NCBI GenBank assembly: GCA_947306425.1
Contig: CAMZGO010000005.1
Coordinates: forward strand, 1-64,000
DNA length: 64,000 nucleotides
DNA from: an uncultured Elusimicrobia bacterium
GTDB lineage: Bacteria; Elusimicrobiota; Elusimicrobia; Elusimicrobiales; Elusimicrobiaceae
Direction of reading: 5' to 3'
Shown here: piece by piece, positions 1,342 to 29,550 of the stretch
Layout: every line of letters begins with the position of its first letter
Position numbering within the stretch: the first letter of the stretch is position 1
The notes under the pieces: model-generated
Database searches by the model: none
The model's input: only the letters and a program-made list of their open reading frames with translations
What the model was told of the DNA's origin: nothing
Position numbers and translations under genes: made by a program

Positions 1342-2043
1342 TTAATATATTGTAGTTCCTATTTCTTTGCCGCTGATGGCAAGTTTGATATTTCCTTTTT
1401 TATGTAAATTAAAAACTTTTAACGGCAATTTATTTTCTAGGCACAAAGCCAAAGCGGCTGTATCCATAAATTCAAGACCTTTTTTAATTGCATCCGCGTA
1501 AGTAATTTTTTTGATTAATTTTGCTTTTGGATTTTTGCGCGGGTCACTATCGTAAACACCGTCTACTTGGGTTGCTTTAAGTAAAATGTCTGCTTTAATT
1601 TCCGAAGCACGCAAAGCAGCGCCGGTATCGGTTGTAAAGAACGGGCTGCCTGTTCCGCCTGCAAAGATTACTACACGGCCCTTTTCAAGATGGCGGATTG
1701 CTCTGCGCCTTATAAAAGGCTCAGCAAGTTTATCAATATTTATGGCGGTCATAACGCGTGTCGGGACATTTATTTCTTCTAAAGCGGACTGCAAGGCAAG
1801 TGCATTGATGATTGTCGCAAGCATGCCCATATTATCAGAATTGATACGGTCAATAATACCACCGCCGTCGCGCACACCGCGCCAAATATTGCCGCCGCCG
1901 ATAACTATGGCAAGTTGGCATTTTGTTGTAAGCGCTTTTTTGATTTCAAGGGCGATATTTTTTAAGCACACAGGGGTTAAACCGCGCGTTTTTTCCGCCG
2001 CGAGTGCTTCGCCCGAGAGTTTTAGCAAGATTCTTTTTGGCAT
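1342..2043 (-). CDS. pyrH: Uridylate (UMP) kinase
   Basis: This 233-aa amino-acid-kinase-fold enzyme phosphorylates UMP to UDP. It shows LLKLSGEAL at the N-terminus, the GGGNIWRG loop near residue 50, and the FAGGTGSPFFTTDTGAALRA region typical of bacterial PyrH; the length is near the usual 235-245. It starts at 2043 behind AAGGAG with a TATTAT/TATATA -10-like region upstream. It is probably co-transcribed with frr. In many bacteria rpsB-tsf precede pyrH-frr, but here rpsB-tsf lie separately at 20.7-22.4 kb. Confidence 0.97.
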   Translation of the reverse strand: MPKRILLKLSGEALAAEKTRGLTPVCLKNIALEIKKALTTKCQLAIVIGGGNIWRGVRDGGGIIDRINSDNMGMLATIINALALQSALEEINVPTRVMTAINIDKLAEPFIRRRAIRHLEKGRVVIFAGGTGSPFFTTDTGAALRASEIKADILLKATQVDGVYDSDPRKNPKAKLIKKITYADAIKKGLEFMDTAALALCLENKLPLKVFNLHKKGNIKLAISGKEIGTTIY

Positions 2044-2094
2044 ATAGTCTCCTTATCTTTTATATAATACAATATTTTGGCTATTGTTTGTAAA

Positions 2095-2799
2095 ATGTTA
2101 AAATATAGTATGTCCTTAATTGATTTTGATAAAGCACAAATTGCCGCGCAAAACAACGCACATGCGGCGCAAAATTGTTTGCTCGTCGGTATTGATGAAG
2201 CAGGCCGCGGGCCGCTTGCCGGGCCGGTAACCGCTTGCGCTTGTTATATTCCGCCGGAACTTTATACGCACCCGCTAATGTCAAAAATCAATGACAGTAA
2301 AAAATTAACACCGCAAAAAAGGGAAGAAATTTTTGAAGAACTTTTAACTTTACCCATTATTTATTGCACAGGTTATGCAAGCGCGGAAGAAATTGATAAA
2401 CTAAATATTTTGCAGGCAACATTTCTTGCCATGCGCCGCGCTCTGGCAAAATTTAAAAATAAAAATATTTCCGTATTAATTGACGGTAATAAAACTATTC
2501 CGAACCTAACCGCACCGCAAAAAGCAATAGTGAAAGGTGACGGTACTTCTTTATGTATCGCCGCGGCAAGCATTATTGCCAAAGTCAGCCGTGATAAATT
2601 TATGCTGCTTTGCGCGCAAAAATATCCGCAGTACAAATTTGAAGAACATAAAGGTTACGGTACGCAGTTGCATACAGACTTAATTGATAAGTACGGTCCT
2701 TGCCCCTTGCACCGAAAAACTTTTGAGCCGGTTTACAGTAAATTTTACGGTCTTTTTGCCGACTCTAATTTTGCAAAAGCGGGGGAAAATAATGTTTAG
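2095..2799 (+). CDS. rnhB: Ribonuclease HII
   Basis: RNase HII cuts the RNA strand of RNA-DNA hybrids, including single ribonucleotides in DNA. The signature GIDEAGRGPLAGPV carries the first catalytic Asp-Glu pair. Further acidic residues lie in VLIDGNK and AKVSRDKF, followed by the KGYGTQLH motif near the C-terminus. The start is uncertain: ATG 2095 or ATG 2110 (no good SD), or TTG 2077. A TATAAT at 2063-2068 would place transcription start near 2075, leaving almost no leader. The gene is divergent from pyrH and overlaps yraN at its end. Confidence 0.93.
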   Translation: MLKYSMSLIDFDKAQIAAQNNAHAAQNCLLVGIDEAGRGPLAGPVTACACYIPPELYTHPLMSKINDSKKLTPQKREEIFEELLTLPIIYCTGYASAEEIDKLNILQATFLAMRRALAKFKNKNISVLIDGNKTIPNLTAPQKAIVKGDGTSLCIAAASIIAKVSRDKFMLLCAQKYPQYKFEEHKGYGTQLHTDLIDKYGPCPLHRKTFEPVYSKFYGLFADSNFAKAGENNV

Positions 2800-3160
2800 T
2801 TTTTTGCGTCGCCAAGGTAATAAGGCCGAGGACCAAGCCGCTAAATATCTAAAAGAAAAGGGTTACAAAATTCTTGCCCGCAACTTTTCTTGTAAAATGG
2901 GTGAGATTGATATTATCGCTGAAGATAAACAAAAAACTTTAATTTTTGTTGAAGTAAAACAACGTAAAACAAATTTATTCGGCGGGGGGCTTGCGGCGGT
3001 AAACAAAGCCAAACAAAGGCGCATTGCTTTGACGGCTGCAGCATATATAAAAAAAACAAGAATTAACTATTTTGCCTTACGGTTTGATATAATAACTGTA
3101 ACAGCGGGGGTTATACAACATTACGAAAATGCCTTTACGGTAACAAACTTAATCTTATAG
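2792..3160 (+). CDS. yraN: YraN/UPF0102 family nuclease-like protein
   Basis: This 122-aa protein has the UPF0102 pattern: EDQAAKYLKEKGYKILARN, then MGEIDIIAED and LIFVEVKQRK. The family has the fold of Holliday-junction resolvase-type nucleases, with Asp, Glu and Lys in the GEIDII/EVK motifs as probable metal-site residues. Its role is uncertain. The ATG at 2792 overlaps the rnhB stop by 8 bp, has a G-rich SD-like stretch, and gives the normal family N-terminus. rnhB-yraN adjacency is common in bacteria. Confidence 0.9.
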   Translation: MFSFLRRQGNKAEDQAAKYLKEKGYKILARNFSCKMGEIDIIAEDKQKTLIFVEVKQRKTNLFGGGLAAVNKAKQRRIALTAAAYIKKTRINYFALRFDIITVTAGVIQHYENAFTVTNLIL

Positions 3161-3168
3161 GAGTTTTT

Positions 3169-3990
3169 ATGAATCAATTAACACAAGTAAAAGAAATCGT
3201 CAAATTTTTGAATAAAAAAACAAAGAATTTTAAGCCGGAAATTTTGCTTATTACCGGCAGCGGTATGGCCGGTTCTATACCGGAACTTGAAAATAAAATT
3301 ACCATACCTTATTCAACTATACCGTACTTTTTGAAAAGCACAATTCAAGGGCATCCTGGTGATTTAGTTTTCGGCACTTATAAAGGTAAAAAACTTGTTA
3401 TTTTGCATGGCAGATTTCACTTCTATGAAGGTTATGATATGAAGGATCTTGCCCTTTCAATAAGAACGGCTGCATTTTTAGGTGCAAAAACAATGTTGGT
3501 ATCTGCAGCAGTGGGTTCCTTGACTAACAAATTGCCCGTCGGTTCTTTATGCGTTTTGAAAGATCATGTAAACTTAATGATGCATAACCCTCTAATCGGT
3601 AATTATGACCCTGCCTTCGGCAAAAGATTTATTGATATGACAGATACTTATGATAAAAACTTGCGCAAAGCCGCTTTACAAATTGCAAATAAATTAAAAA
3701 TTAAAGCAGGCGAAGGTGTTTATGCCGCAGTTACGGGGCCCAACTTTGAAACACCATCTGAAATTCGTATGTTCAAAATTTTGAAAGCGGATGTTATAGG
3801 TATGTCCACTGTTCCGGAAGTAATTTGCGCAAGGCAACTTGGCATGAAGATTTGCGGGCTTACCTGGGTTGTAAATATGGGCTGTGGTATTTCTAAAAAA
3901 CCAATTACACACGAGGAAACCATTAAGGAAACCAAAAAAATCGAAGGCAGTTTTAAACGCGTTTTGGAGCATTTAATTCCGCTTTGCTAG
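3169..3990 (+). CDS. Purine nucleoside phosphorylase (trimeric type)
   Basis: The 273-aa protein belongs to the MTAP/PNP family that phosphorolyses purine nucleosides to base and pentose-1-phosphate. The phosphate loop appears as TGSGMAG (residues 29-35), then HGRFHFYEGY (80-89), VTGPNFETPSEIRM and GMSTVPEVICARQLG. The base-binding segment reads NMGCGIS where TNMAAG-like sequence is usual, so purine preference may differ. An AGGAG lies 8 nt upstream of the ATG. It follows yraN with a 9-bp gap, probably in one operon with rnhB-yraN. Confidence 0.92.
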   Translation: MNQLTQVKEIVKFLNKKTKNFKPEILLITGSGMAGSIPELENKITIPYSTIPYFLKSTIQGHPGDLVFGTYKGKKLVILHGRFHFYEGYDMKDLALSIRTAAFLGAKTMLVSAAVGSLTNKLPVGSLCVLKDHVNLMMHNPLIGNYDPAFGKRFIDMTDTYDKNLRKAALQIANKLKIKAGEGVYAAVTGPNFETPSEIRMFKILKADVIGMSTVPEVICARQLGMKICGLTWVVNMGCGISKKPITHEETIKETKKIEGSFKRVLEHLIPLC

Positions 3991-4012
3991 ACGGTTTTAA
4001 ACGGCAGAATTT

Positions 4013-5467
4013 ATGGTAAACAAAGTAAAACGGCTCGGGAAAGAAACACTTATTTACGGAACTTCCACCATTTTGGCTAGGATGTTAAATTTCTTCCTAG
4101 TGCCGTTTTACACTTATTACCTAATAACATCAGATTACGGCATAATTGCCACCGTTTTTGCTTTTATGGCTTTGTTCAACATCATTTACCAGTATGGTAT
4201 GGACCAAGCCTATCTGCGTTTTGCCGAGGATAATAAAACCAAAGATACTTTTTCCACACCATTTTTGGCAGTTTGCGGCACCTCAATTTTACTTTCGGTT
4301 TTGATTTATTTTTTAAGTCCTGTTTTGGCAGGGTTTTTGGGTATCGGAGCAAACAATGCTTACCTTATAAAATATTGCGTTTTGATTTTGGCTTTTGATG
4401 CCTTGAATATTGTACCTTTTGCAAAACTCCGTTTTGAACACCGGGCTTGGCATTTCGTGCTTGTAAGAAGTGCTTCAATAATTGTAAATGTCGGCGGAAA
4501 TATTTGCGCTTTGGCTTTCTTTAATTGGGGTGTTAAGGGTGTTTTCGCAGCGGGAATTTTGGCATCTTTGACATCTTTGGTTTTACTAATTCCTGTGATA
4601 AAAGAAAGTTTTATTTTCCGTTTTGATAAAAGTTTATTTAAGCAGATGTTTAAATTTTCCTGGCCTTTTATACCGGCCGGGCTTGCAAGCATTTTGGTAA
4701 ATGTAATTGATAAACCTTTGCTTTCGCATTTAACTTCTTTACATGATGTAGGCGTATATCAAGCCAATTTTAAAATCGGTATTTTTATGATGCTGATTGT
4801 TTCAATGTTTGATCAAGCATGGCGCCCGTTTTTTATTCAAGAAGCAAAAGAGCCGAACGCCAAACAAACTTTTGCGGAAATTTTTACTTGGTCTTTTGCC
4901 TTGCTCGGTTGGGTGTTTTTAGGGCTTGCTTTGCTTATGCCTTTAATAATTCAAACAAATATTTTCGGCTTAAATTTAATTAACCGCGCTTATTGGGGCG
5001 GGCTTAAGATTATACCGTTTGTCGTAGGCGGGTATTTCTTTTACGGCTGCTATATTAATTTTATGGTAGCACCTGTTTTGACTAAAAAAACAACGGTGCT
5101 GATGAAAATTACCTTACTAGGCGCAGCTACCAGCATTTTGGTAAATATTTTGCTTGTTCCGCATTTTGGAATTATCGGTGCCGGTTGGGCGATATTTACA
5201 AGTTATTTTGTTATGGCACTTTGTTTATTTGCGTTCGGTCAAAAAAAGTACAAAATTGATTATGAGTACAAAAAAATATTTTTGACGGCTTTGCTTATTT
5301 GCATATTGTTTTTTGCCGGTGATTATTTTGGATGTTTGCCAACGTACAGGAATTATCTAAGCAAAATTATTTTACTTTGTGTGTATCCGCTTGTTGTGTT
5401 TTTAATTTTACAAGGCCGTCGCCCTAAACTGCCTTTTAAAATATTCCGTAAGAACTTAAACAAGTAA
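4013..5467 (+). CDS. Oligosaccharide flippase (Wzx/MATE-like membrane protein)
   Basis: This 484-aa protein is hydrophobic throughout, with about 12-14 predicted membrane segments. The N-terminus (LGKETLIYGTSTILARMLNFFLVPFYTYYL) is typical of the polysaccharide-biosynthesis/RfbX branch of the MOP exporters, which flip undecaprenyl-linked oligosaccharides. A basic C-terminal tail faces the cytoplasm. It starts 22 bp after the PNP gene with no clear SD. The substrate cannot be told; the surface-sugar genes at 48.8-60.2 kb contain no Wzx, so this might serve them, but that is inference. Confidence 0.88.
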   Translation: MVNKVKRLGKETLIYGTSTILARMLNFFLVPFYTYYLITSDYGIIATVFAFMALFNIIYQYGMDQAYLRFAEDNKTKDTFSTPFLAVCGTSILLSVLIYFLSPVLAGFLGIGANNAYLIKYCVLILAFDALNIVPFAKLRFEHRAWHFVLVRSASIIVNVGGNICALAFFNWGVKGVFAAGILASLTSLVLLIPVIKESFIFRFDKSLFKQMFKFSWPFIPAGLASILVNVIDKPLLSHLTSLHDVGVYQANFKIGIFMMLIVSMFDQAWRPFFIQEAKEPNAKQTFAEIFTWSFALLGWVFLGLALLMPLIIQTNIFGLNLINRAYWGGLKIIPFVVGGYFFYGCYINFMVAPVLTKKTTVLMKITLLGAATSILVNILLVPHFGIIGAGWAIFTSYFVMALCLFAFGQKKYKIDYEYKKIFLTALLICILFFAGDYFGCLPTYRNYLSKIILLCVYPLVVFLILQGRRPKLPFKIFRKNLNK

Positions 5468-5558
5468 TAATTATAATTACATTTTTTCATCGTAAAATCT
5501 GCTTAATTTTTTTTTAAATATACCTATACTCAAATAAAAACGCTGTAAAAGCAAGTAT

Positions 5559-5705
5559 ATGAGATTTTATAAAAATAAAAAAGGTTTTACTTTAATTGAA
5601 CTTTTGGTGGTTGTTTTAATAATTGGTATCTTAGCGGCTGTTGCTTTACCGCAATATCAAAAGGCAGTAGCAAAAGCAAAACTTAAAGAGTTCATGGTCA
5701 ACTAA
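5559..5705 (+). pseudogene. Truncated pilin gene
   Basis: ATG at 5559 opens a 48-codon frame ending TAA at 5705. It encodes the complete prepilin leader and hydrophobic helix ([20 protein letters not shown], then [14 protein letters not shown]) but no globular C-terminal domain. Intact pilins here are 156-196 aa. No good SD precedes it. Immediately downstream lies a decayed gmk fragment, so the C-terminal half was probably lost in the same rearrangement. It could still be expressed as a short membrane peptide. Confidence 0.8.
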
Positions 5706-5741
5706 AAAGTATATACAATTTTCTCTTGTAAAGCGGACAGC

Positions 5742-5912
5742 AAATTTAATAAAATATATACATAGAAGAGTATCTTCCTATTATTTTGTCCGCCCCATCA
5801 GGTGCAGGCAAAATGATAGTAGCAAATGAACTATCACGGAAAAGCTCTTTGGAAAGCGTTCTCAAGAAAAGCAAGTGTTCTTTGCTTGTCATAGATGTAC
5901 AAGGGGCAAAAT
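5742..5912 (+). pseudogene. Decayed second copy of gmk 5' region
   Basis: This stretch matches the upstream region and start of the intact gmk (7930-8017), including AATTTAATAAAATATATA and the P-loop coding sequence TCAGGTGCAGGCAAAA. It then jumps to sequence matching about 8193-8265 (CTCTTTGGAAAG, then CATAGATGTACAAGG), so roughly 175 bp of gmk are missing. The ATG is altered and no frame is long. It is a clear relic of a partial gmk duplication on the other side of the LTA-synthase-like gene. Confidence 0.85.
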
Positions 5913-5972
5913 CCAAGCCCTCTTTCAAACTGTTTAGCAAAAAATAAAAAATGTGACCTAGAATAATATAAT

Positions 5973-7868
5973 ATGAAATCATTCCCCAAACCTCAAAACA
6001 CAATCCTAACTTTAAAGATAAAAACAATGATATTCTTCTATATTGTTTTTTTTCTGATTATGTTATTTGCCCGTATCGGAACATTACTTTGTGCTTCCAA
6101 TTATTTTGCCGGCTTAACAGGTAAACAAATTTTACTTTCATTTTTACACGGTGCACGTTTTGATTTACATATAATGGGCCTGATACTTATCCCTTTATTT
6201 ATCTTGTTTATGATTCCTTTTAGAAGTAAAAAAATTATTAAGATATTTGTTTATATTTTTATATTTTTATGTTTCGCTTTATCCCTTTTTATAGTATCTG
6301 ACATAATATTTTTTGCTATTTTCAATAATCATATTGGTATTGAAATTTTGACAAGTTTTACACATATCGGTTTATTTGTACAAATGGCATTTCAAACATA
6401 TTATTACATCACAATACCATTACTCATAGGGGCAATTTTGGTTTTTTATTTTTCTAATAGATATTTGGATAGAATATATAATCCGAATAAAGAACCTCAT
6501 TTCGTACGTAATTCAATTTTTGTTATCTTATTGTTAATCCCGTTGATGTTTTTTATGCTAAAAGGAAAAATGCAGATTCATGGCAGAAACGTAGGTCTTA
6601 TGGATGCACAAGTTTTGGGTACACCTAAAACCGTTGATTTAATTTTGAATGCTCCGTATACAACAATAAATGCAATTCATAAACGACAAAACAGAAAACT
6701 CTATTTTGATAATCCTGTTAAAGGTATAAGTATAGCTACGGAGCAAGAAGAGCTATTAAACCAAGATAATCCTTTTGAAAGAAAAAGAATTTCTTTTAAT
6801 AAACAAAATAAAGATTATAATTTTGTATTAGTTATACTTGAAAGTTTTGACCCTTTATTAATAGATAAATACCCCGATGTCATTCCAAATTTTATGAAGT
6901 TAAAAAATGAGGGCCTTTATTATAAAAATTTTTATTCTTCCGGCATGCGCTCTTTAATAGGGGTGACAGCAACTTTATTTTCCGTACCTTATGTTTGGGG
7001 TCTTCCCACTATGAAAACCGGTTTAGGTGGCAATGAGTTTAGCAGAATTGCCACTTATTTCGTAAACAAAAATTACTCCACATTAAATATTATAACAGAC
7101 CTGCCTTCAGCAGATAATGCGAATTTAATGGCCCAATATTTGGGTTTTGACTCTTTTTATTCAAAAAATGATATACCCGTAAAAAATGATTATCCGATTT
7201 TTCATAAGGGTTTTGATTATGAAGGTTTAGAATTTTTAATTGAAAAAATAAATAAACTCAATAATAAATTTTTCGCTTATTTCTATACTTCAAGTTTGCA
7301 TAACCCTTATAATATTTTACTTAGTGAAAAATATAAACTATATCCCATGGACACAGAAGAGCATCAATTTTTAAACAGGACTTATTATACAGATGTCGCT
7401 TTAGGAAACTTTTTAACTAAAGCGCGCAAAGAGCCTTGGTTTAAAAATACTATCTTCTTGTTTTTGCCTGACCACCGCGCCCCGCTTAGCAACAGGATGA
7501 CAGATGACATCACTGAAAGCAAATTTAAATCTTTTCTCTTGATATATGGGCCGGAAATAGAACCGCAAACAAGTAACATTTTTGTTACACAAGAAGATGT
7601 TTTACCCACTTTAATAGATTTGCTAAATACTTCACAAAGTTATTCTTCTTCCGGCCAAAGTTTATTTGATAAGGAACGTAATAAAGATAAATTTATCTAT
7701 GAAGAAAACAAAAATACTGTGCATATTATCGGCCCTAAAATAAGGGATGTTTTCAGTGAAGAAACTTTAGAAGATTTTTCTTCTCTTTCAGATGAACGTA
7801 AACAAGCGCTGCAATTTAATGAAGCGGTATTTACTCTTTTAAAGAATAATACTTGGAAAAAGAAATAA
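5973..7868 (+). CDS. LTA synthase/phosphoglycerol transferase-like membrane sulfatase-fold enzyme
   Basis: The 631-aa protein has about five N-terminal membrane segments (residues 15-205) and an extracytoplasmic alkaline-phosphatase/sulfatase-fold domain (about 285-590), the layout of LtaS, OpgB/MdoB and related transferases. Metal-site motifs visible are VILESFDP near 288, the nucleophile region GMRSLIGVTA near 323, and LPDHRAP near 498. At the nucleophile this protein has Ser (R-S) where MdoB-type relatives have Thr (R-T). It probably modifies a surface glycan or lipid with a phospho-headgroup. No SD is visible; AT-rich -10-like sequence abuts the ATG. Confidence 0.82.
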   Translation: MKSFPKPQNTILTLKIKTMIFFYIVFFLIMLFARIGTLLCASNYFAGLTGKQILLSFLHGARFDLHIMGLILIPLFILFMIPFRSKKIIKIFVYIFIFLCFALSLFIVSDIIFFAIFNNHIGIEILTSFTHIGLFVQMAFQTYYYITIPLLIGAILVFYFSNRYLDRIYNPNKEPHFVRNSIFVILLLIPLMFFMLKGKMQIHGRNVGLMDAQVLGTPKTVDLILNAPYTTINAIHKRQNRKLYFDNPVKGISIATEQEELLNQDNPFERKRISFNKQNKDYNFVLVILESFDPLLIDKYPDVIPNFMKLKNEGLYYKNFYSSGMRSLIGVTATLFSVPYVWGLPTMKTGLGGNEFSRIATYFVNKNYSTLNIITDLPSADNANLMAQYLGFDSFYSKNDIPVKNDYPIFHKGFDYEGLEFLIEKINKLNNKFFAYFYTSSLHNPYNILLSEKYKLYPMDTEEHQFLNRTYYTDVALGNFLTKARKEPWFKNTIFLFLPDHRAPLSNRMTDDITESKFKSFLLIYGPEIEPQTSNIFVTQEDVLPTLIDLLNTSQSYSSSGQSLFDKERNKDKFIYEENKNTVHIIGPKIRDVFSEETLEDFSSLSDERKQALQFNEAVFTLLKNNTWKKK

Positions 7869-14260: not shown

Positions 14261-14449
14261 AATAAAAACGACTGTTCATTTTATGGACACTTAAATACAT
14301 AAAACAAACAGCCGTAACTACTGCCCCGAAGGGCAGCAGCATTAAATATATTTTTACCCGTCGGTTACTCATATATTTGATTACGACTGTTTTTGGTTTA
14401 AGTGTCCTTTTGCTTTCGCAAAATACGGCTTTAAAGCCCCCAAAAACAA
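14261..14449 (-). promoter_or_regulatory. Structured pilin leader element i (attenuator-like)
   Basis: Minus-strand RNA. P1 is 11 bp (14285-14295 with 14397-14407). Inside it are hairpin 3 (14344-14378), hairpin 4 (14318-14339) and an ACGGCTG segment (complement of 14309-14315). ACGGCTG can pair upstream with CAGTCGT (complement of 14383-14389; about 12 bp with flanks and one G-U) or downstream with CAGTCGT (complement of 14268-14274), the latter making a 16-bp stem followed by TTTTTATTT. The 5' motif TTGTTTTTGG (complement of 14440-14449) pairs with CCAAAAACAG (complement of 14387-14396). Two small hairpins lie between (14408-14423 and 14427-14438). Confidence 0.8.
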
Positions 14450-19435: not shown

Positions 19436-19632
19436 AATGAAAAACGGCTGGGTAATTCTGACCTAGTCTAATGCCAAAAATTATACAGCCGTAGTTATGT
19501 GCCTAAACACATAACATTAGCAAAACAATTTTAAGGGAGCTACCCTCAAAATCGTTTTGCCATGACAGCTGCTTTTGAACTAGACTAGGCCTTCTGTTAG
19601 AAAGCACTTCTTTTTAAGAAACTCAAAAACAG
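19436..19632 (-). promoter_or_regulatory. Structured leader element ii (attenuator-like)
   Basis: Minus-strand RNA. P1 is 9 bp (19462-19470 with 19581-19589). Hairpin 3 (19520-19560, arms GCAAAAC.ATTTT.AGGG) and hairpin 4 (19494-19515, GTTATGTG/CACATAAC) lie inside. ACGGCTG (complement of 19486-19492) can pair upstream with CAGCTGT (complement of 19565-19571, one G-U) or downstream with CAGCCGT (complement of 19444-19450) followed by TTTTTCATT. The 5' motif CTGTTTTTGA (complement of 19623-19632) pairs with TCAAAAGCAG (complement of 19569-19578). Small hairpins occupy 19589-19605 and 19608-19620. Confidence 0.8.
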
Positions 19633-22760: not shown

Positions 22761-23341
22761 TAAATTTGCTGCGCAGCGCGTGAACACGCACGCGCGCTAC
22801 TGTGCAGCGCGAAATTATGCTCGCACGCTACGGTTTATCTATAATAATTATAACTTGTTGATGACCAATGATGTTCTAACGGGACACCCCAGCCTGAATT
22901 TGTTTGATATTTCTCTCCGAAAGAAGCACATATTTTATTTGCTTTTTCATTATTTTCTTGTGCAAGGCATATTCCGCGTGAATCAGTTGCTTGACCGTAT
23001 GGGTCAGTTAATGACTCCATATAGTATATAGATAAATCTATATTTCCGCAATCAATCATAGACGGCCAAGCACTAATAGAAGAATTATATTGATTGTTTG
23101 ACATACAACAAAAAATTTTTCCATTATCAACGCATTTATACATATGGTTTCCTTTTTTGTTTGCTTTAAAATCACTGGATATCGTTATTGAAAGTTCTTC
23201 AAAATTTTGAGTACCTTCATTATGTACTAAGAGATAATCATTATAAGCTGTTCTAAGAGATGATACAATTGTTTGATATTTTTTGAATTCCGCTTTCCCA
23301 ACAACAATTTGATATTTTGGTATGGCAATTGCGGCAAGTAT
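22761..23341. repeat. Mosaic pilin repeat, copy A
   Basis: Pairs with 26216-26796. A 261-bp block (23081-23341) is identical to 26536-26796, and a 131-bp block differs at two bases. Two short patches in the coding C-terminus and the N-terminal coding sequence are diverged. The downstream GC-rich tail (GCAGCGCGTGAACACGCAC) is shared as well. Confidence 0.9.
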
Positions 23342-23416
23342 ACCAATAATTAATACGACGACTAAAAGTTCTATAAGAGTAAAACCTTTAGCGAATTTTT
23401 TATTTGTGTTTATCAT
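22835..23416 (-). CDS. Type IV pilin-like protein, mosaic copy A
   Basis: The 193-aa prepilin has leader MINTNKKFAKG and [27 protein letters not shown] 23416 with AAGGAG is preferred over the longer frame. Its central region is identical in DNA to the gene at 26290-26880. It differs in two patches: SISAWPSMID (versus SYSHWESRIA) and EKYQTNSGWGVPLEHHWS (versus NKYQTAPGWAIPVINNYQ). These patches lie near conserved Cys residues, so they are likely exposed disulfide-framed loops. Leader element iii lies upstream. Confidence 0.9.
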   Translation of the reverse strand: MINTNKKFAKGFTLIELLVVVLIIGILAAIAIPKYQIVVGKAEFKKYQTIVSSLRTAYNDYLLVHNEGTQNFEELSITISSDFKANKKGNHMYKCVDNGKIFCCMSNNQYNSSISAWPSMIDCGNIDLSIYYMESLTDPYGQATDSRGICLAQENNEKANKICASFGEKYQTNSGWGVPLEHHWSSTSYNYYR

Positions 23417-23439
23417 TTTATTCTCCTTACTATTTGGGG

Positions 23440-23625
23440 AAAAAAGACGGCCGCGTTTATTGCGAACAACCACACCCACAATAAAAACAGCCGTAGTTTA
23501 TCTGAAAACGATAAACACTAAGCACAAAATAGACGGGTAATTATTCCGTTTATTTTATGCCTTATGCCGTATTTGGGGTGGTTGTGCCTTAATAATAAGA
23601 CGGTGCCTTTTGGCGCCCAAAACAG
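23440..23625 (-). promoter_or_regulatory. Structured pilin leader element iii (attenuator-like)
   Basis: Minus-strand RNA. P1 pairs 23467-23477 with 23575-23584 (CAACCAC core, one bulge). Hairpin 3 is 23526-23556 and hairpin 4 is 23496-23516. The terminator is strongest here: ACGGCTG (complement of 23488-23494) plus TTTATTGTG pair with CGCAATAAA plus CGGCCGT (complement of 23447-23453), followed by CTTTTTT. Both non-Watson-Crick pairs are G-U on this strand. The upstream alternative strand reads TACGGCA, so the antiterminator pairing seen in the other copies is missing. The 5' motif (complement of 23616-23625) still pairs with 23567-23577. Confidence 0.75.
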
Positions 23626-26215: not shown

Positions 26216-26796
26216 TAAATCTGCTACGCAGCGCGTGAACACGCACACGCGCTACTGCGCAGCGCGAAAACATTTTCGTTCTCTACGGCTTATCTATAAT
26301 AATTATAACTTGTTGATTGATAATTATTTATTACTGGGATAGCCCAGCCTGGCGCTGTTTGATATTTATTTCCGAAAGAAGCACATATTTTATTTGCTTT
26401 TTCATTATTTTCTTGCGCAAGGCATATTCCGCGTGAATCAGTTGCTTGACCGTATGAGTCAGTTAATGACTCCATATAGTATATAGATAAATCTATATTT
26501 CCGCAAGCAATACGGGACTCCCAATGACTATATGAAGAATTATATTGATTGTTTGACATACAACAAAAAATTTTTCCATTATCAACGCATTTATACATAT
26601 GGTTTCCTTTTTTGTTTGCTTTAAAATCACTGGATATCGTTATTGAAAGTTCTTCAAAATTTTGAGTACCTTCATTATGTACTAAGAGATAATCATTATA
26701 AGCTGTTCTAAGAGATGATACAATTGTTTGATATTTTTTGAATTCCGCTTTCCCAACAACAATTTGATATTTTGGTATGGCAATTGCGGCAAGTAT
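26216..26796. repeat. Mosaic pilin repeat, copy B
   Basis: Partner of 22761-23341; see that entry. The offset in the identical block is exactly 3455 bp, in the same orientation. Confidence 0.9.
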
Positions 26797-26880
26797 GCCG
26801 ATTATAAGTACAACAACTAAAAGTTCTAACAAAGTAAAACCTTTAATGAATTTTTTATTTTGTTTGTTTTGTATTTTCAT
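26290..26880 (-). CDS. Type IV pilin-like protein, mosaic copy B
   Basis: The 196-aa prepilin has leader MKIQNKQNKKFIKG followed by [17 protein letters not shown] (Leu for Ile at one position). AAGGAG precedes the ATG. The central 87 codons are identical in DNA to copy A, but the sequence for the N-terminal helix differs by mostly synonymous changes. This is the footprint of gene conversion rather than simple recent duplication. The two loop patches differ strongly. Leader element iv lies upstream. Confidence 0.9.
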   Translation of the reverse strand: MKIQNKQNKKFIKGFTLLELLVVVLIIGILAAIAIPKYQIVVGKAEFKKYQTIVSSLRTAYNDYLLVHNEGTQNFEELSITISSDFKANKKGNHMYKCVDNGKIFCCMSNNQYNSSYSHWESRIACGNIDLSIYYMESLTDSYGQATDSRGICLAQENNEKANKICASFGNKYQTAPGWAIPVINNYQSTSYNYYR

Positions 26881-27081: not shown

Positions 27082-27292
27082 AATAAAAAACGGCTGCCTA
27101 TATCGGACTCCACACACGTTGCCCAAATATAACAGCCGTAGTTTGCCAAGTATGTAAAACATACCGGCAAACATTCAATACAAAAAAACGGGTCTAGAAT
27201 CCGTTTTTCTTGTATTTATCGGCTGCTTTTGGCGTGTGTGGAAGTTGGTTTTCCAACTAACCCATATTCTAAAAATATGGTTCCAAAAACAG
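27082..27292 (-). promoter_or_regulatory. Structured pilin leader element iv (attenuator-like)
   Basis: Minus-strand RNA. P1 is 9 bp (27110-27118 with 27233-27241, CCACACACG/CGTGTGTGG). Hairpin 3 is 27178-27215 and hairpin 4 is 27141-27172. ACGGCTG (complement of 27133-27139) can pair upstream with CAGCCG (complement of 27220-27225) or downstream with CAGCCGT (complement of 27090-27096). The downstream stem extends through TATAT/ATATA and is followed by TTTTTTATT. The 5' motif CTGTTTTTGG (complement of 27283-27292) pairs with CCAAAAGCAG (complement of 27223-27232). Small hairpins lie at 27244-27257 and 27262-27280. Confidence 0.8.
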
Positions 27293-27368: not shown

Positions 27369-28508
27369 TTAACAAACTTTTGCAAAACCGGGGCAGTTAC
27401 ATTTTGGTGAATCTTCCGGGCAATAATCCCCGTGGCAACAGGCGCCTTTGTCATAGGAACCTGTGCAGGTCTTTTCCATATTGGCAATACATCTGCCGCC
27501 GTTTTTAACGGTTATTTCTTGACATGCACCAAGAGCATTAGCCTCACAAATACCGCCGAAAAGAACAGTTGCATTATTGCAAGATTGCAAGGTGTTGCCC
27601 ATGCAAATACCGCCATTGTTTATCAATGGTTTATGACAACCCAAATTCCCGCTACCGGAGGCTAAACAAGTGCCGCCCTTGTTAATTATTGTATTTTGAC
27701 AACCGTAAGAACCTAAATAATCTTCACTAACGATACAATATGCACCGCTGTGTATTTGAACAGAATGGCAGGCAGTATCAGTTTCCGCGATGCAGGTGCC
27801 GCCGCGTAAATCGCTTCCGACACAAGCAAATGAACCTTTGCCTTCACAAGTTGCACCACCGTAAACTACGGAATTTTGGCAGCCGCTTGGCATAGAACCG
27901 ATACAAGTTCCGCCTTGGTAAATTTCCATATTTTGTAAGTTAGTATAACCGCAAAAAATGTTCTCACTTTTTGTATCCCACGGCATAGAAAGAGCAAGGC
28001 ACATATCCTTTTCACGTGTATAGCAGTTATTGTTTTTTGTAGACCAAAGCATATTGGCTTCTTCGCATATTTCTTTGCTTATCGGTGCTATATTTTTGCA
28101 AATATGGTGTTCGCTGGGGGCGCAGTGGAAAGAAGAATTTCTGTAATCATAATATACAAAGTAGTCCCTCTTATTATGAACTCCGAAAAGGCCTTTTGTA
28201 CCCATATTTACAATAAAATTTCCAAGACGTGCTTCTTCGCCTGACAGATACTGATCGTTATTATCTTTAATTTTGAGGTCCAAATTTCTAAAGTCATCTG
28301 TAAATGTGCTATGACCTATTTCGTAGTTTATCTGCGCCGTAGCAATTTTTTGCATTTTATTATAGAGCGAGGATAAACGCATTCTTTCAATTACTTTCCC
28401 AAAAACAGGATACAACAGAAACAAAGCAGCAATAACCACTACGGTTGTAATGAATTGTTTTTTTATAAAAAAACTCAACAATGATACTTCAGAATTCTGT
28501 TCTCTCAT
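27369..28508 (-). CDS. Pilin-like N-terminus fused to cysteine-rich repeats
   Basis: The 379-aa protein has one membrane segment (about residues 17-37) followed by RMRLSSLYNKMQKIATAQINYEIGHSTFTDDFRNLDL, which resembles the post-helix region of the local pilins. However, the GFTLIE prepilin cleavage site is absent. Residues about 195-350 hold eight units of the form G-G-x-C, 7-11 residues, C, spaced 20-25 residues apart (GGTCIGSMPSGC, GGTCIAETDTAC, GGICEANALGAC). There are 28 Cys in total, with a CC-rich C-terminus. It is probably an extracytoplasmic disulfide-laddered solenoid. No family is recognised. trxB lies directly upstream. Confidence 0.8.
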   Translation of the reverse strand: MREQNSEVSLLSFFIKKQFITTVVVIAALFLLYPVFGKVIERMRLSSLYNKMQKIATAQINYEIGHSTFTDDFRNLDLKIKDNNDQYLSGEEARLGNFIVNMGTKGLFGVHNKRDYFVYYDYRNSSFHCAPSEHHICKNIAPISKEICEEANMLWSTKNNNCYTREKDMCLALSMPWDTKSENIFCGYTNLQNMEIYQGGTCIGSMPSGCQNSVVYGGATCEGKGSFACVGSDLRGGTCIAETDTACHSVQIHSGAYCIVSEDYLGSYGCQNTIINKGGTCLASGSGNLGCHKPLINNGGICMGNTLQSCNNATVLFGGICEANALGACQEITVKNGGRCIANMEKTCTGSYDKGACCHGDYCPEDSPKCNCPGFAKVC

Positions 28509-28620
28509 AATTGCCCCTAATTACCCACTAAACAGATTGATGCCCAACCATATTATATAAAATTATTCCCGAAATGGTCAAAAAATTAAAATGACTATAC
28601 AAAAAGCTAGCGGTAATAAA

Positions 28621-29550
28621 CTATTTCACTTGGTTTATATAATTTATAATTTCTATGGCTGCTTTAGCACCGCTGCCTGCCGCTACTATTGCCTGGCGGT
28701 AGATAGCATCTTGACAATCACCGGCGGCAAAAAGGCCTTCAATATTTGTTCTTTGTTTTTCATCTACAATAATATGACCGCTTTCCGCTAATTTGACCCC
28801 GCTTTCCGCTAAAAATTTTGTTTGAGGTATAGACCCTATTGCGACAAAAATACCTTGCAGTTGCAATGTCTTTATTTCTTTAGTTTCAGGGTTTTGAAGT
28901 TCTATTCCGGTTACTGCCTTATCATCACCCAGAATTTTTGTTGTAACGGCAGGTATAACAAATTCAATTTTTGGGTTGTTTTGTGCTTTTTTTATTGTTG
29001 TTTCATCAGCCCTAAAACCGGCCCGGCGATGTATCAAATATACTTTTTGACAGAAATTAGTTAAGAACAAAGCGTCTTCAAAAGCGGTGTTACCGCCACC
29101 GATAATAGCAACTGTTTTGCCTTTATAAAAAAAACCGTCGCATGTCGCACAAGCAGATAGACCGTGGTTTTTATATTTATTTTCCCCGTCAATACCCAGC
29201 CACCTTGCCGTTGCACCTGTTGCTGCAAGGACGGCGTAAGAAGATATAATTTCCCCCCCTTCTATTTCTGTAAGCATTTTTTTACCGTCTTTTTTAACGG
29301 AAACAGCCGTCTTTTGTAAGATTTCCGCGCCAAGACGTTGGCACTGTTTGTGCATTTTATTCATTAATTCAAAACCGTTGATAGGGTCAATAAAACCGGC
29401 ATAATTTTCAACTTCATTTGTTTGTACAAGTTGCCCGCCGAAATTTTTACCTCCGAGCAAAACCGTTTTAAATCCTGCACGAACGGTATATAAAGCGGCA
29501 CTGCATGCCGCCGGACCTGAGCCTATAATCAAAACATCTGTTTCTATCAT
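28621..29550 (-). CDS. trxB: Thioredoxin reductase
   Basis: The 309-aa flavoprotein transfers electrons from NADPH to thioredoxin. It has the FAD loop GSGPAACSAAL (residues 10-20), the redox pair CATC (134-137), the NADPH loop GGGNTAFEDA and the C-terminal FAD motif FAAGDCQD. The length is typical. It overlaps the maf start by 4 bp downstream of that gene. Confidence 0.96.
   Translation of the reverse strand: MIETDVLIIGSGPAACSAALYTVRAGFKTVLLGGKNFGGQLVQTNEVENYAGFIDPINGFELMNKMHKQCQRLGAEILQKTAVSVKKDGKKMLTEIEGGEIISSYAVLAATGATARWLGIDGENKYKNHGLSACATCDGFFYKGKTVAIIGGGNTAFEDALFLTNFCQKVYLIHRRAGFRADETTIKKAQNNPKIEFVIPAVTTKILGDDKAVTGIELQNPETKEIKTLQLQGIFVAIGSIPQTKFLAESGVKLAESGHIIVDEKQRTNIEGLFAAGDCQDAIYRQAIVAAGSGAKAAIEIINYINQVK

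Follow-up and report, generated by a model that had tools for sequence, protein, structure and literature searches.

A modular pilin-like protein of the Elusimicrobiaceae with a predicted cysteine-framed β-solenoid and a lost prepilin processing site

The stretch of DNA analyzed here (the window) comprises 64,000 nucleotides, positions 1 to 64,000 of contig CAMZGO010000005.1 (assembly GCA_947306425.1), from an uncultured Elusimicrobia bacterium of the family Elusimicrobiaceae. It contains, on the reverse strand, a gene for a pilin-like protein whose C-terminal part is built from cysteine-framed repeats, and this solenoid protein is the subject of the present report. An initial annotation made from the sequence alone had described an open reading frame of 379 residues with 28 cysteines, and the sequence and its translation bear out frame, strand, length and cysteine total. 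The same annotation counted eight GG-x-C...C units at a spacing of 20–25 residues. The count of eight stands, with units starting at residues 199, 218, 236, 255, 278, 299, 318 and 337, but only six of them are strict GG-x-C, the other two being GA-x-C. The spacing had to be corrected, as the measured intervals (19, 18, 19, 23, 21, 19 and 19 residues) range from 18 to 23 with a mode, and hence a period, of 19. Each coil contains two cysteines, mostly 8 residues apart, and from the second of them it is mostly 11 residues to the first cysteine of the next coil. When the residues of positions 191–379 were shuffled, six GG-x-C motifs arose in only 1 of 100,000 trials.

The N-terminal region resembles that of a type IV pilin that has lost its processing site. 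Aligned by MAFFT without gaps to relatives that are true prepilins, the protein and its three orthologs retain Phe at position +1 and Pro22, whereas position −1 is Ser, Val, Val and Val and position +5 is Lys, Lys, Arg and Lys across the four; both Gly−1 and Glu5 are therefore lost. The only Pfam match, PF16734 (Pilin_GH) over residues 50–87, lies at the expected place at 16.2 bits, below the cut-off of 28.9. The prepilin motif PF07963 is matched neither by the protein nor by its three orthologs, while it scores above its cut-off in eight of nine relatives tested, the ninth being truncated by a contig end. Hydropathy reveals a single hydrophobic span, confined to the first 45 residues: the best 19-residue segments start at residues 18–23, and no such segment above 1.6 starts past residue 45. 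The single span and the pilin-like segment lacking a cleavage site, both proposed at the outset, are thus upheld. Because the genome itself encodes a prepilin peptidase (PF01478), we regard the loss of the site as meaningful, and we think it likely that the protein is left uncut by the peptidase and stays anchored in the inner membrane. The initial placement of the solenoid outside the membrane accordingly holds for the inner membrane only, since a pilin that goes unprocessed should remain in it.

We modeled the protein with AlphaFold2 from an alignment of eight sequences, and we modeled a prepilin relative (L071) from the same eight in a different order. The model of the solenoid protein has a mean predicted local distance difference test score (pLDDT) of 73.9, and values mostly between 77 and 93 over residues 190–360 speak for an ordered solenoid rather than a disordered region. 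When the candidates returned by Foldseek were aligned with VIA-align, the passengers of the self-associating autotransporters TibA and Ag43 scored well above all other structures (PDB 4q1q, 4kh3, 7kob, 7koh and 7ko9; PMC8993888); the model shares their right-handed β-helix. The protein aligned to TibA with a Z-score of 17.1 (193 residues, root-mean-square deviation 3.5) and to four Ag43 entries with Z-scores of 14.5–16.4, the next row scoring 10.6. The values for L071 are similar, at 18.7 for TibA (212 residues, deviation 3.2, 20% identity), 15.9–17.2 for Ag43 and 10.4 for the next row, and residues 5–135 of L071 align to the full-length PAK pilin 1oqw with a Z-score of 8.3. In both models the solenoid follows the pilin part, and no final pilin strand can be assigned beyond it. 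Judging from these models, the coils very probably form a right-handed β-solenoid resembling the TibA/Ag43 passenger.

The protein is no orphan. With high confidence we assign it, by sequence and architecture, to a modular type IV pilin family that is so far confined to the Elusimicrobiaceae. Relatives at several loci are true prepilins that carry the same C-terminal module. A profile of the C-terminal part (threshold E ≤ 1e-6) matched 14 of the 90 family genomes, and widening the search to 340 genomes of the phylum left the count at these 14. The repeat does recur elsewhere, mostly on genuine prepilins. The module is present in two genera, that of the window (5 of 18 genomes) and genus g6 (9 of 66). 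A scan of named-species genomes with one derived peptide pattern yielded six loci, all labeled Elusimicrobium, Elusimicrobia or Elusimicrobiaceae, three of which point to the rumen (RUG13237, Tb.RUG.145 and RGIG8113, the last from water buffalo rumen). The viral contigs and plasmids searched gave no match to the solenoid family and BFVD none at E ≤ 0.001, and we rejected a viral origin. One genome, G018 (C1), has neither the solenoid module nor the leader RNA described below.

The absence of a known family, as first noted, holds for the repeats and not for the protein as a whole, which belongs to the modular pilins and has a fold analog in TibA and Ag43. Pfam gave no family for its coils, nor for the C-terminal parts of the nine relatives tested, and NCBIfam gave nothing for the protein; the NCBIfam matches of two solenoid relatives all fall in the pilin part and include one sub-threshold row at chance level. 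Searching the PDB by single sequence gave chance-level matches only, and searches of the open-access literature turned up no description of the solenoid–pilin family or of the leader RNA.

Within this family, the protein as judged from its sequence is the odd member, with fixed length, fixed cysteines and a processing site lost in all four orthologs. Its own genome has no second solenoid, the eight other matches there spanning the pilin-like N terminus only. Four other genomes of the genus have relatives, namely the three orthologs (53–59% identical) and one 35% identical protein that has the prepilin site KKGFTLMELL. All four orthologs are exactly 379 residues long, and the ratio of nonsynonymous to synonymous substitution rates (dN/dS) among them is about 0.1–0.2 where it can be computed, that is, where synonymous sites are not fully saturated. 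The prepilin relatives vary, as is apparent in genome G034, where a prepilin site is present in 23 full-length paralogs; six further paralogs are partial, five of them at contig ends. Column conservation in 20-column blocks is 0.56–0.95 up to the six-cysteine module and 0.09–0.42 beyond it, and across the 253 protein pairs the median identity falls from 0.75 in the pilin half to 0.36 in the solenoid half. These paralogs are old, complete genes. Silent-cassette antigenic variation was considered and rejected, as each of the 23 possesses a start codon of its own and a sequence resembling a ribosome-binding site, and the DNA identity of their pilin halves never exceeds 0.88.

Among 243 coil pairs from 60 proteins, the two cysteines of a coil are 8 apart in 127 and the second cysteine is 11 from the next coil's first in 168. 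The notion of a variable loop set in a constant frame was dropped, the standard deviations of 2.4 and 3.4 being too large. Very short coils (GGxCxGxC, cysteines 4 apart) occur in the second half of a relative, the protein at 1165–2349 (−) of locus L063, and illustrate how far coils can shrink.

The cysteines themselves are strictly conserved: all 28 are invariant across the four orthologs, versus 20 of 39 Gly, 10 of 31 Asn and 2 of 17 Val. We also counted extracellular cysteines in the deduplicated canonical pilins of the loci examined, leaving out proteins with missing letters. The number is even in all 38 pilins with at least 14 cysteines, a set that includes three large cysteine-rich pilins (L017, L029 and L145), which are not clear solenoid members, and in 31 of 33 pilins with fewer. 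In a cytoplasmic control, 14 of 27 proteins encoded in the window have an even count, one of 28 genes having been dropped for a wrong frame. When even cysteine counts outnumber odd ones in exported proteins, this is generally taken to indicate oxidative folding (PMC12453122), and the even counts seen here, together with the invariant cysteines, make the disulfide ladder first suggested from the spacing a probable one. As a separate observation, contig C11 of the same genome (L145) carries convergent genes for cysteine-rich giant pilins at 1992–4403 (+) and 4482–6650 (−), of 803 residues with 64 extracellular cysteines and of 722 residues, near the prepilin peptidase gene.

The enzymes that would introduce such disulfides are not readily apparent. 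DsbB (PF02600) and VKOR (PF07884) were detected in none of 30 genomes, although the controls matched; DsbD/CcdA (PF02683) was detected in none of 12 genomes of the genus, with seven of seven genomes positive in a sister family; and the organism's own genome has no match to DsbA (PF01323). It does encode an exported DsbA-like protein (L157, C3:11081–12010) with a CPYG motif, and thus one active-site cysteine, and with cysteine as its last residue. Homologs occur in 17 of the 18 genomes of the genus, its own included, and the last residue is cysteine in all ten distinct homologs inspected. We infer that it is the leading candidate for the oxidant activity that is missing. A cultured relative of the lineage is a strict anaerobe. 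Obligate anaerobes tend to exclude cysteine from exported proteins, as noted in work on clostridial disulfide enzymes (PMC12453122).

Table 1. Positions in the window of the solenoid protein gene, its parts and nearby features
Feature	Position	Strand	Basis
Gene for the pilin-like cysteine-solenoid protein, 379 residues	27369..28508	(−)	Open reading frame; orthologs 53–59% identical
Degenerate prepilin site, residues 12–17 (S F F I K K)	28458..28475	(−)	MAFFT alignment, without gaps, to true prepilins of the family
Single transmembrane span, residues 19–37	28398..28454	(−)	Hydropathy; helix 2–45 in the model, low pLDDT
Pilin-like N-terminal region, residues 13–123	28140..28472	(−)	Alignment to canonical prepilins; sub-threshold PF16734
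Six-cysteine linker module, residues 129–188 (C..C..C..W..CY..C..CGY)	27945..28124	(−)	Cys/Trp/Tyr/Gly invariant in six relatives from two genera
Predicted eight-coil β-solenoid, residues 199–350	27459..27914	(−)	Period 19, cysteine spacing 8/11, model, TibA/Ag43 Z-scores
C-terminal cysteine cap, residues 355–379 (GACCxGxYCxxxxPxC...)	27372..27446	(−)	CC-x-G-x-YC and P-x-C conserved
Promoter-like TATAAT between trxB and the solenoid gene	28552..28557	(−)	By eye
trxB, directly upstream	28621..29550	(−)	PF07992, 3.4e-49; adjoins in 4/4 orthologous loci
Leader RNA copies	27119-27232, 23474-23576, 14295-14396, 19472-19578	(−)	Covariance model

The gene's neighborhood is partly shared among the orthologs. 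In all four orthologous loci trxB sits immediately upstream in the same orientation (Table 1). Three of the four continue from the solenoid gene to a leader RNA and a canonical pilin, and the spacers between trxB and the gene in L068, L069 and L070 also contain TATAAT when inspected by eye. All 18 genomes of the genus have trxB. In G011, trxB is 90% identical and is followed directly by a thioesterase gene, the slot of the solenoid gene being empty. The flanks of seven more distant members of the genus were also compared; one contig ended there, and in the remaining six neither the thioesterase gene nor a cysteine-solenoid gene adjoins trxB, two having an ordinary pilin gene in that place that faces it. 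In small trees of trxB, an aminopeptidase and rpsB, G011 groups with G003 (FastTree support 0.995 for protein and 1.000 for DNA, IQ-TREE 82 for protein), although the IQ-TREE DNA tree is unstable and the outgroup has trxB only. This grouping suggests that the solenoid gene was lost in G011 rather than gained elsewhere. The empty slot and the differing neighbors in other members of the genus give no indication of a functional link to trxB, which we consider unsupported; on sequence grounds the adjacency, kept in all four loci and first noted as perhaps due to chance, is best read as a shared position. Elsewhere in the window, the pilin genes at 22835–23479 and 26290–26880 share 90.7% DNA identity (536/591) with their differences in short patches, a pattern that suggests recent duplication or conversion with local diversification.

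Canonical pilin genes in these genomes are often preceded by a leader RNA of about 113 nucleotides that folds into a three-way junction; the solenoid protein's own gene has no such motif. The closing stem of the leader, CAGYCG/CGGCUG, competes with a terminator (CGGCUGUU...AACAGCCGUUUUU). We aligned 19 sequences, one of 20 motif hits having been dropped because it lay inside a coding region. In the three stems, 96.4% of cells are paired and 19 of 28 pairs have changed on both sides, and the covariation of 0.489 compares with 0.234 (standard deviation 0.015) in shuffled and 0.09–0.14 in slid alignments. At E ≤ 0.001 the covariance model found the leader in 79 of the 90 genomes of the family; the organism's own genome has 38 copies, and four genomes have at least 41 each. 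Of 37 copies examined, training sequences included, a T-run occurs within 70 bases of 35, and a pilin gene lies directly downstream of 19; among 30 loci from the genome search this holds for 13, and the window's copy at 19472 lies upstream of a zinc-ribbon gene rather than a pilin gene. Rfam gave no match at gathering scores for the leader places; around one copy, a threshold relaxed to E ≤ 1 brought up hits that all scored far short of the gathering scores of their families. The leader is thus apparently undescribed, and we regard it as a candidate riboswitch or attenuator.

Modular pilins with a β-solenoid are already known as a kind, and the protein described here is a new variant. In PilB and PilC of Streptococcus sanguinis (PMC8179133), a small pilin module is likewise combined with a bulky module on its C-terminal side, and the true prepilins of the present family fit this description. 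The solenoid protein differs in that its extra module is a cysteine-framed solenoid for which Pfam and NCBIfam hold no model and in that it lacks the class III signal peptide by which pilins are defined in that work. Its modular architecture is seen in both sequence and model; the function of the module is a prediction. A closer parallel in kind is ComZ of Thermus thermophilus, which has Gly at position 5, is missed by PilFind, carries a large β-solenoid and is proposed to sit at the pilus tip (PMC6561018). Both proteins thus join a pilin-like domain to a large β-solenoid, predicted in the present case, lack Glu5 and go unrecognized as prepilins. In ComZ, however, the solenoid interrupts the pilin fold between its last two strands and is similar to an ice-binding protein, and the word "disulfide" is absent from the main text of that paper, whereas the solenoid reported here follows the pilin part in the models and has regular 19-residue coils with two cysteines each. 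Relative to TibA and Ag43, a pilin anchor takes the place of the C-terminal barrel and every coil has a cysteine pair; the protein ends in its cysteine cap at residue 379, with no outer-membrane β-barrel and no Pfam match there.

Taken together, we tentatively favor, at somewhat short of even confidence, a reading in which the protein is an unprocessed, anchored modular pilin with a stapled solenoid, of a capping or priming type that is ComZ-like in kind. The two cysteines of each coil would pair and staple the solenoid rung by rung. The prepilin peptidase would leave the protein uncut, so that an inner-membrane anchor would hold a rigid solenoid on the outer side, where it may offer a binding surface. 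Within a type IV filament, Glu5 of one subunit is paired with the N-terminal amine of its neighbor, and the subunit that caps the tip complex has no Glu5 (PMC10191384). By analogy with such caps and with ComZ, the protein might act as a capping or priming minor pilin in the place of GspK/PilK and ComZ, a role that we consider possible but somewhat doubtful; the loss of Gly−1, too, should hold it in the inner membrane. As for the prepilin relatives, their variable solenoids would be displayed on pili, where adhesion or self-association is the likeliest function. A more specific version, which strikes us as rather improbable, has a permanently uncleaved pilin, lacking the free amine at position 1, stand in for the normal docking chemistry of the filament: its Lys or Arg at position 5 would supply the positive charge required by Glu5 of the next subunit, and it would prime or cap a filament while still anchored. 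Its solenoid and the variable ones on the pili of the lineage would be stapled by one disulfide per coil, formed without DsbB or VKOR, perhaps by the candidate CPYG DsbA-like protein.

A number of observations weigh against the favored reading. GspK-type caps are not known to lose Gly−1, and this protein has lost it. The pilin part of the model is poorly defined, with pLDDT below 50 at residues 34–90; the alignment behind it is shallow, and repeats rich in Gly and Cys may be modeled as solenoids too readily. Foldseek found nothing in the PDB at E ≤ 0.001, the best values being 8e-3 for TibA and from 1.6e-2 for Ag43, and the query TM-scores of the listed rows do not exceed 0.27. Comparison with Ag43 K-12 by hhalign gave a probability of 0.1% and a profile against TibA an E-value of 0.24, which is not significant; we therefore reject homology to Ag43 at the sequence level and call the solenoid TibA/Ag43-like only. 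The parity counts lack independence, since the sequences counted are related to one another. Finally, G011 does without the gene, and 13 of the 18 genomes of the genus, some of them incomplete, have no module match at E ≤ 1e-6; the protein is thus no core pilus component, and its role would be accessory.

Alternatively, the protein could be displayed on the surface or on a pilus as an Ag43-like adhesin that self-associates or binds host or food material, the missing Gly−1 and Glu5 reflecting only non-standard processing. Its closest folds are those of self-associating adhesins, its relatives are prepilins with variable solenoids, and ComZ, for which cleavage by the peptidase is likewise not predicted, is still proposed at the tip (PMC6561018). 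We nonetheless find an adhesin unlikely, given that all four orthologs have lost both residues and have a basic one at position +5, and that they are fixed in length and coils where the prepilin relatives vary. A span that serves as a cleaved Sec signal, with secretion of the protein, is very unlikely: a V-x-G tripeptide can be seen by eye after the span, but the alignment reveals no such site in the three orthologs, and the post-span helix continues the pilin register.

The 28 cysteines and the constant position of trxB might instead suggest a redox or metal-binding partner of TrxB. TrxB is cytoplasmic, however, whereas the cysteines are predicted to lie outside, and a promoter-like TATAAT separates the genes; given also the ubiquity of trxB in the genus, its other neighbors in distant members and the empty slot in G011, there is little chance that this is so, and the 8/11 spacing in the solenoid frame is unlike any metal-cluster motif known to us. 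Least credible is a decaying pilin left as a relic after loss of its processing site. In its favor, the processing site, though nothing else, is degenerate, and the gene does seem to have been lost in G011, but identical length, invariant cysteines and the low dN/dS mark the gene as no relic.

On the favored reading of an anchored, unprocessed modular pilin, some genomes of this family hold a variable repertoire of solenoids, while the window's lineage keeps one fixed, unprocessed member with reversed charge at position 5. The even cysteine counts pose a puzzle of their own, in that a gut lineage has pilins with up to 64 extracellular cysteines, almost always even in number, and yet no detected DsbB or VKOR. 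With this family, the modules grafted onto bacterial pilins would come to include a solenoid that is Ag43-like and apparently stapled by disulfides.
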